Assembly (NCBI GenBank): GCA_030425385.1
Contig: JAUIAH010000024.1
Location: 1 to 64,000 of the forward strand
Reading direction: 5' to 3'
DNA: 64,000 nt
Source: Verrucomicrobiia bacterium
GTDB lineage: Bacteria > Verrucomicrobiota > Verrucomicrobiia > Verrucomicrobiales > DEV007
In this document: piece after piece, positions 47,453 through 53,339 of the stretch
Layout of the letters: each line of letters starts with the position of its first letter
How positions within the stretch are numbered: the first letter of the stretch is position 1
The notes under the pieces: model-generated
Told to the model about the DNA's origin: nothing
What the model saw: only the letters and a program-made list of their open reading frames with translations
Database searches by the model: none
Made by a program: the position numbers and the translations under genes

Positions 47453-47606
47453 GTCACCAATTTCTTAAATTTGCAGACCCTCGAAGCAAGGGCAAATCAT
47501 CAGAATAGACTGGAGTGAGAAGCGCTTTGTTCATTCAAACATTCAGGCGATGCAAAGCAGTGCACACCAATCTGGCCTTTCGTCCGATTTGGGAACACCT
47601 TCACAG

Positions 47607-48089
47607 ATGCGACTCAACCACCTTGCCTGGGCGATGCGTCTCTTCCTTGCCTACCTCTTTCTCACGGCCTCCATTGGGGGGTGGGCCTGGAATGAAGGCC
47701 GTTGGGTGCAGGTGGAAGGCAAGTTGGTGGACCCCCAACGATTCCTCTTCCACCTGCGCGCCCTAGACCTGCTGGAAGACCCGTGGAACGCCTGGGTAGC
47801 TATGAGCCTCCCTTGGCTGGAAGCCGTGACCGGCATCGCGCTGATCCTGCCGTGGACGACCTTGGGAGGGTCTGCCATGGCGGCTGGGTTGTTAGGAACG
47901 TTCGTGGTGTCCCTAACGACGGCACAACAACGCGGCCTCGAAATCGACTGCGGTTGCTTCGGCGGGACGGCAGCCACAGATAATCTAAACGTCGCGATTG
48001 CCTGGCGCGTGCTATGGTTAGGGCTGGCGGTTTTCTCATTCGTCATCGCCTGGCAAACCACTCAAGGCCGAGCTGCGAAATCTCAGTAG
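47607..48089 (+). CDS. MauE/DoxX-like membrane protein
   Basis: The 160-residue protein (ATG 47607; frame opens at 47550) has four membrane helices: WAMRLFLAYLFLTASI, WLEAVTGIALIL, AMAAGLLGTFVVSLT and VLWLGLAVFSFVIAW. It has the conserved GLEIDCGCFG motif with paired cysteines, typical of the MauE/methylamine-utilisation family and of VKOR-like or DoxD-like redox proteins. Such proteins may handle disulfide or thiol chemistry in the membrane. Confidence 0.8.
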   Translation: MRLNHLAWAMRLFLAYLFLTASIGGWAWNEGRWVQVEGKLVDPQRFLFHLRALDLLEDPWNAWVAMSLPWLEAVTGIALILPWTTLGGSAMAAGLLGTFVVSLTTAQQRGLEIDCGCFGGTAATDNLNVAIAWRVLWLGLAVFSFVIAWQTTQGRAAKSQ

Positions 48090-51551: not shown

Positions 51552-51733
51552 GATGGGTGACTATTCGACCGATCGGCCGCGAGAAACAAGTGTATTCCTG
51601 TCGCAAGGCCGCCCCGCGACAGGAATGCGGGCGGAGGAGAATGCCTAGCGCCCAAGCTTGTGAAATCTGTGAAATCCGTGGGAATAAGTCGCGCTTTGAC
51701 TTCGTCTCTTATCCAGAGCATTCTATCAACGCT

Positions 51734-52255
51734 ATGTATCGTATCCTGACCTCATGCATCATCGGCCTTACCCTGGCCGCTGGAGGCCTCACAGCCACCG
51801 CGGACACCAAGGGCAAAGGAAAGATCGCCAGCGCAGTCTCTGGCAAACTCGTCAAAGCTTCTGGGAAGAAAGTCGATGCCTTTAAGAGCGACGCTTCTCC
51901 TAGCTACTACCTCGCCTATCATTCAGCTAGTTGGTGAGGCGCTTGTAAGCAAGTGACTCCACAGTTGGTGGAGTTCTACAAGGGTCTCGATGGTAAGAAA
52001 GATCGGAAGTTGGAAATCGTCCTCGTCAATCACGATAGCAATCAGAAGGGCATGGATCAATACATGACGAAGAGTAAGATCAACTTTCCCGGGCTCAAGC
52101 ACTCGGAGTCTAACAAGAACGCGCTCGCCACGGCGACGAAAGTGGAATACTTGCCCACGATCGTCCTCACCGATGCCAATGGCAAAGTGGTGGCCTCCGG
52201 TTACGGCGCGGATTGTGCCAAAGTCATCGCCAAAGCGAAAGCGGTCGCGAAATGA
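51734..52255 (+). CDS. Exported thioredoxin-like selenoprotein, Sec encoded by in-frame TGA
   Basis: One frame runs from ATG 51734 to TGA 52253-52255, interrupted only by TGA at 51935-51937. Read as selenocysteine it gives 173 residues with Sec68. The signal peptide (RILTSCIIGLTLAAGGLTATA) exports the protein. The active site reads SASW-U-G-A-C-K, matching thioredoxin's WCGPCK with Sec at the attacking position and Cys71 as resolving residue. The fold goes on with VEFYKG, EIVLVNHD, and VEYLPTIVLTD, whose Pro matches the cis-Pro of thioredoxins. A SECIS-like hairpin follows the TGA. Cut into two ORFs, it would look like a short lipoprotein-like gene and a 100-residue fragment. It resembles nucleoredoxin/TlpA thiol reductases. 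Confidence 0.9.
51935..51937 (+). other. In-frame UGA codon, predicted selenocysteine (Sec68)
   Basis: The codon lies exactly where thioredoxins have the first active-site Cys, between W67 and G69. Coding sense continues unchanged after it in the same frame. Confidence 0.88.
51955..51975 (+). promoter_or_regulatory. Bacterial SECIS-like hairpin
   Basis: GACTCCAC (51955-51962) pairs with GTGGAGTT (51968-51975), giving 8 bp with the outermost a G-U pair. The loop is AGTTG, with GU at 51964-51965. The loop's G lies 27 nt after the UGA, inside the known spacing range for bacterial SECIS elements, which bind SelB through a GU-containing apical loop. It overlaps codons for VTPQLVE. Confidence 0.78.
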
Positions 52256-52286: not shown

Positions 52287-52323
52287 AAGGGCCCGTTCTC
52301 CGCGAGGAGGACGGGCCTTTCTT
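52287..52323 (+). terminator. Rho-independent terminator after the selenoprotein gene
   Basis: AAGGGCCCGTTCTCC pairs with GGAGGACGGGCCTTT around a GCGA tetraloop: a 15-bp stem with two G-U pairs. A short T-rich run (TTTCTT) follows. It lies 31 bp after the stop codon. Confidence 0.85.
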
Positions 52324-52382: not shown

Positions 52383-53339
52383 ATGCTTCATTATCTGCCA
52401 GGGTTTTCGTGGTCGGTGGCGCTCTGCGCATGGCTACTGAGTGTTTCGCTCACGTGGGCTGGACCGCCGAACACGACTGCGATCACGCGGCTTCAGATCT
52501 ACCTCGACAACCATCATTTCAGTCCAGGCCCAATCGATGGTCACTACGGCACGTTTACCAAACGCGCATTGGCCTACTACAACACCCGCGAGGGCCGCTC
52601 GCCATTGGACTGGCAGACAGTGCTCTCCAAAGCCGAGCGCGAGATTCCTTTCGTGGTCGTGACGCATCGTTTGCAGCGGAGTGAATGGAAATGGGTGGGT
52701 GACGTGCCAGACGATCTGGCGGCGCAAGCCAAGCAGACGTCGCTCCCCTACACTTCCATTAAGGAGTATCTAGCAGAGCGCTATCATGCAACGGTGCCAT
52801 TCCTGCAACGGCTCAACCGCCGCAAGGATCTCGATTTCCTTCAGCCGGGTGATTTGGTCGTGGTGCCGAATGTGAAGGACGTGTTTCGAATAGAGGCGGT
52901 GCGCGCTCTGCGGCGTCCTCGGGGGCAGGTCCAGACGGAACGCTATGTGTTCGTCGACACGGCGAACCGCATGGCGAGCATTTGCCGAGGAACGACCTTG
53001 TTAGCAGCCTTCCCCATCACGCATGGGCGGGAACGCTTTGTGCCTCGGGGGCAATGGAAGGTGCAGAATCTGGTGGCCAACCCGAGCTTCCGCTGGGACG
53101 AACGGATGCTGAAAGAAGGCGAGCGGAGCACGGACTTTCACACGCTGCCACCCGGTCCGAATAACCCAGTGGGAGTCCTCTGGATGGGGATTAGCAAGAA
53201 AGGCATTGGACTGCATGGGACGAATGCCCCAGAGACGATCGGGCGGTCGCTCAGCGCCGGTTGTGTGCGCTTCACCAACTGGGACGCCATGCGCTTGCCC
53301 AAATACCTCGGAGTGGGTTCCGAGGTGATTGTGCGTTAG
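52383..53339 (+). CDS. L,D-transpeptidase (YkuD) with N-terminal binding modules
   Basis: The 318-residue protein has a signal peptide (SVALCAWLLSVSLTWA). A peptidoglycan-binding-like helical part (TRLQIYLDNHHFSPGPIDGHYG) and a LysM-like stretch (IKEYLAERYHATVPFLQRLN, LQPGDLVVVPN) precede the YkuD domain. That ends with the catalytic motif HGTNAPETIGRSLSAGCVR. The enzyme probably cross-links peptidoglycan in a 3-3 manner or attaches proteins to it. The start ATG is 60 bp after the terminator. Confidence 0.92.
   Translation: MLHYLPGFSWSVALCAWLLSVSLTWAGPPNTTAITRLQIYLDNHHFSPGPIDGHYGTFTKRALAYYNTREGRSPLDWQTVLSKAEREIPFVVVTHRLQRSEWKWVGDVPDDLAAQAKQTSLPYTSIKEYLAERYHATVPFLQRLNRRKDLDFLQPGDLVVVPNVKDVFRIEAVRALRRPRGQVQTERYVFVDTANRMASICRGTTLLAAFPITHGRERFVPRGQWKVQNLVANPSFRWDERMLKEGERSTDFHTLPPGPNNPVGVLWMGISKKGIGLHGTNAPETIGRSLSAGCVRFTNWDAMRLPKYLGVGSEVIVR

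Follow-up and report, generated by a model that had tools for sequence, protein, structure and literature searches.

The closest described counterpart of the gene reported here is the "thiol-disulfide isomerase-like" selenoprotein, which combines a UxxC motif with a pfam13905/cd02966 domain, is catalogued in reviews from 2022 and 2026 (PMC9312934, PMC13188914), and was first found in the Sargasso Sea (PMC1088965). Cys homologues of this family are widespread. Verrucomicrobia were not named in the papers searched on the family, and nothing relevant was found in the literature that pairs Verrucomicrobiales or Roseibacillus with selenoproteins.

The locus lies in a 64,000-nucleotide stretch of DNA, hereafter the window (C32:1-64000), from the 8.0-Mb genome of a member of the Verrucomicrobiales. 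Within it, the TGA at 51935-51937 very probably encodes selenocysteine (Sec) at the active site of a thioredoxin-like enzyme. Because standard gene calling splits such genes, they are easily missed; in this case, mechanical ORF calling yields two pieces, 51557-51937 and 51953-52255.

Gene structure and selenocysteine machinery

Translated with TGA as Sec, the gene forms a single frame with one internal TGA (codon 68), located at the position of the attacking residue of the thioredoxin fold in a WUGAC motif (Table 1). A preliminary description of this DNA had joined the two called ORFs into one frame across the TGA, placed that codon where thioredoxins have their attacking Cys, and proposed a resolving Cys71, a cis-Pro, and a terminator closing the gene. 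These points were borne out by the translation, by the Thioredoxin_8 domain around the motif, by an alignment of 12 homologues in which both Cys71 and the cis-Pro are invariant, and by a 15-bp hairpin downstream of the stop codon (-31.8 kcal/mol, z -4.7). A scan for consensus terminators did not list this hairpin, probably because its stem extends into the T tract. The ATG at 51734 is supported as the start by homologues. The N-terminus, MYRILTSCIIGLTLAAGGLTATA, resembles a signal peptide by eye, and a hydrophobic N-terminus is common to the aligned homologues; the selenoprotein is probably exported to the periplasm by way of this peptide.

Table 1. Coordinates of the selenoprotein gene, its signals, and the adjacent gene in the window
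Feature	Position	Strand	Details or basis
Selenoprotein gene	51734..52255	+	173 aa; TGA codon 68 as Sec; stop TGA 52253-52255
Likely signal peptide, residues 1-23, ATA cleavage-like site	51734..51802	+	inspection by eye
Active site U-G-A-C (Sec68 to Cys71)	51935..51946	+	translation, homologue codons, and alignment
SECIS-like hairpin, 7-bp stem, AGUUG loop at 51963-51967	51956..51974	+	comparative and folding
cis-Pro codon (Pro141)	52154..52156	+	invariant in alignment
Terminator-like hairpin, then T-rich tail	52287..52320	+	folding energy
YkuD L,D-transpeptidase, catalytic-type Cys (SAGCVR)	52383..53339	+	outside selenoprotein gene

With tRNA-Sec, selA, selB, and selD all present, the host decodes Sec by every genomic criterion tested, and the search for selA, selB, selC, and selD proposed in the preliminary description thus returned the full set. 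The tRNA-Sec scored 65.1 bits against a cut-off of 47 and was called by ARAGORN as tRNA-SeC with anticodon TCA; selB (C32:84654-86564) resides on the same contig as the window, and selA is present in the genome. The host selD (C23:120876-121799) has an in-frame TGA, read ...TCGUAAK..., and is a selenoprotein gene itself. Judging from this machinery and the sequence, SelB together with Sec-tRNA-Sec would bind the hairpin that follows the UGA, such that Sec is inserted and translation does not stop.

A proposed role in envelope redox control

In the periplasm, Sec68 and Cys71 would alternate between the selenol/thiol and selenenylsulfide states, with the reduction of disulfides or sulfenic acids of envelope proteins as the most likely role. 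Electrons would probably be supplied by the host's single DsbD-type protein, which apparently bears Sec as well. Specifically, the only DsbD-type (DsbD_TM) protein found in the host (C61, L167:197-2494) has a TGA (L167:2222-2224) right after FTASW at its C-terminal thioredoxin active site, and continues as UATC to its natural end. Of 30 DsbD loci examined across the order, 23 carry TGA at this codon and 7 have Cys instead. A DsbD with TGA at its active site makes an exported electron relay with Sec at two steps plausible. A Sec-bearing DsbD may already be known, since the 2026 review (PMC13188914) includes a PF13098 "thiol:disulfide interchange protein" with UxxC and a rhodanese/DsbD fusion-like protein, TsoB. 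The chances that the selenoprotein is a reductase fed by DsbD are about even. More tentatively, a DsbD with Sec may, in many Verrucomicrobiales, be the electron donor of an exported and likewise Sec-containing thioredoxin-like protein, which in turn would protect enzymes of the envelope, perhaps including L,D-transpeptidases. A MauE-family membrane protein with a CGCFG motif, possibly another envelope redox protein, is encoded approximately 4 kb upstream (47550-48089, + strand).

In a narrower form of this explanation, the Sec protein would act as a dedicated guardian for the adjacent YkuD protein, shielding its catalytic Cys in the manner of E. coli DsbG, which has been reported to protect L,D-transpeptidase-type enzymes (PMC3526765). 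Apart from this precedent and the catalytic-type Cys itself, the idea draws on the fact that YkuD is the next gene downstream in four genomes of the same genus (the window's and three others). However, the YkuD neighbour is missing in the wider family and beside the copy in genome G275, and a terminator hairpin separates the two genes; little weight is therefore given to YkuD as a substrate, which makes it a weak lead and the dedicated guardian an improbable one. Across the family as a whole, no conserved neighbour emerged that could be an operon partner. The G275 copy (L070, G275:C125) belongs to a genome that was binned to a different family. Downstream of its TGA it shares 93% identity with the copy in G099, a genome of the window's genus, and it could be either a transferred gene or a misbinned contig. 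A reductase fed by DsbD remains the preferred reading. The gene offers a testable idea of how selenium may be used in envelope redox control, and cultured strains with longer relatives are available.

Conservation of the TGA codon and its hairpin

Matches to the protein at E <= 1e-10 were found in 228 of 387 genomes of Verrucomicrobiales. The closest relatives (61%, 54%, 54%, and 52% identity) have TGA at the aligned codon, as do many more distant homologues, while others have TGC or TGT; wherever the codon was readable, it was Cys or TGA, as was to be checked according to the preliminary description. After the removal of duplicates, 32 distinct homologues in the order have TGA at exactly the same codon (in G198, a rejected candidate, the TGA is located elsewhere and Cys occupies the site). 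No internal TGA occurred among the matches listed from outside Verrucomicrobiales in a wider sample of the phylum, and those of them read at the codon carry Cys.

A search of approximately 85,000 species genomes with a TGA-specific DNA pattern identified 56 contigs, all but three of which belong to Verrucomicrobiota and encode a Thioredoxin_8 domain. Among these contigs are those of the cultured Roseibacillus persicicus, R. ishigakijimensis, and Persicirhabdus sediminis, which possess longer WUGPC relatives. L109 was discarded as a fortuitous match; L112 and L126, from outside Verrucomicrobiota, were classed as other TlpA-like Sec candidates. The latter two, from a Phycisphaerae MAG and a KSB1 MAG, respectively, have TlpA-like domains with WUGGC and are candidate selenoproteins, although the hairpin of L126 is weak. 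A peptide-pattern scan of the genome contigs recovered no relatives, probably because one pattern presumed a Cys codon and the others derived from a single divergent sequence. Two main types of the protein are apparent, namely a short WUG(A/G)CK type that includes the window's and a longer, mostly WUGPC type. A tree built from 101 sequences of both forms, Sec and Cys, requires 4 state changes and does not cleanly separate the two; it is compatible with either several gains or losses of Sec. In L064 (G006) and L132, three Sec-containing thioredoxin-like genes are clustered in a single stretch, which suggests local duplication.

The distribution of the Sec form tends to follow that of selA, which is present in 118 of the 387 sampled genomes, making Verrucomicrobiales an order with many Sec-decoding members. 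Specifically, selA was found in 24 of the 28 Sec-form genomes and in 94 of the 359 remaining ones (p 5e-10, uncorrected for genome relatedness). Among the four Sec-form genomes in which it was not found, three are less than 60% complete and one is approximately 90% complete.

In nearly all TGA homologues, the UGA is soon followed by a hairpin with a 6-7 bp stem and a near-constant AGUU(G/A) loop. The stem shows compensatory changes (CUCCAC/GUGGAG, CGAAGC/GCUUCG, and CUGCAC/GUGCAG), and its covariation score of 0.503 compares with 0.180 +/- 0.030 for shuffled alignments (0 of 500 reach it) and with 0.259 at best in slid registers. Codon usage at the loop is dictated by the loop sequence: all 32 genes use TTR for the Leu at this position, compared with 114 of 492 Leu codons (23%) in the remainder of their sequences (p 1e-19), and CAG encodes every one of the 31 Gln residues present there, against 53 of 107 at other positions, while Cys homologues have different residues and codons at this position. 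The first 24 sequences were picked independently of the hairpin; since the later 56 contigs were selected by their loop, only their stems count as independent. A covariance model of the hairpin recovers the window's site (E 3.5e-11, with that site in the training set) and gives a second, weak match in the host (E 0.16) at a WUGPC thioredoxin. An Rfam scan of the site returned nothing relevant. Taken together, the hairpin is a putative SECIS signature, and the gene represents a clean Sec family in which this element is well defined.

Features by which bacterial selenoproteins are recognized were thus found at this locus: an in-frame UGA with Cys in homologues, selA, selB, selC, and selD in the host, and, on comparative grounds, a hairpin just 3' of the UGA. 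In addition, the sequence 3' of the TGA shows purifying selection, with dN (0.03-0.43) below dS (0.32-2.1) in every pair among five close relatives. Read-through by itself leaves the inserted residue unnamed, and the TGA might instead specify a different amino acid or be read through general nonsense suppression. This is very unlikely, given that the readable non-TGA homologues have Cys at the aligned site, that tRNA-Sec is the only TCA-anticodon tRNA among the candidates checked (part of the genome's tRNAs), and that the RNA hairpin accompanies the TGA forms. A dead gene in which a Cys codon mutated to TGA, or was misread as such, would take a single base change from TGC or TGT in a genome known from one assembly, but this most improbable of the alternatives is already refuted by dozens of independent genomes with TGA at this very codon, which exclude a sequencing error at 51935-51937, and is further opposed by the purifying selection 3' of the TGA, the hairpin covariation, and the complete Sec machinery. 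The recurrence of this TGA, at its exact position, in dozens of homologues, together with the covariation, the codon constraint, and the selection, places the Sec reading beyond chance. Comparative evidence thus brings it close to shown, and, alongside the host machinery, it supports the hidden selenoprotein proposed in the preliminary description.

Relation to known thioredoxin-fold families

The protein matches Pfam Thioredoxin_8 (PF13905) with 59 bits against a gathering cut-off of 27 (E 5.9e-16); Thioredoxin, Redoxin, and AhpC-TSA score lower. An AlphaFold model has a thioredoxin-like fold (pLDDT 85, with low confidence for residues 1-26), and its best PDB matches are tryparedoxins, followed by ResA and StoA. 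These proteins, the best matches in both structure and sequence, share the fold but have Cys where the window protein has Sec. The scores for ResA (NF002854; 40.9 bits, cut-off 170) and classical thioredoxin (TIGR01068; 34.7 bits, cut-off 96.8) are far below threshold, and the NCBIfam score for StoA is far under its cut-off.

Among Sec-containing relatives, the TUGYCR motif (seleno)protein (NF053656) likewise joins Sec to a thioredoxin fold, but the window protein scores only 21.2 bits against its cut-off of 100. The Sec-containing thioredoxin (WUGPC) also has Sec at the attacking position, and the host has such a gene, whereas the window protein is longer, has a likely signal peptide, and forms a family of its own. 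This second host Sec protein, at C69:36244 on the minus strand (L165/L073), has an N-terminal hydrophobic segment. The preliminary description had placed the novelty in both family and host; this holds only in part, as UxxC Thioredoxin_8 selenoproteins are already catalogued. No paper on the protein in Verrucomicrobiales was found. The thiol-disulfide isomerase-like selenoprotein has the same UxxC motif and, according to the table of the 2022 review, the same Pfam domain, and the window protein has both of these defining features. The likeness to this family (references MAK15852.1 and MGB1650493.1) is one of motif and domain definition, and by that definition the window protein belongs to a known kind of selenoprotein.
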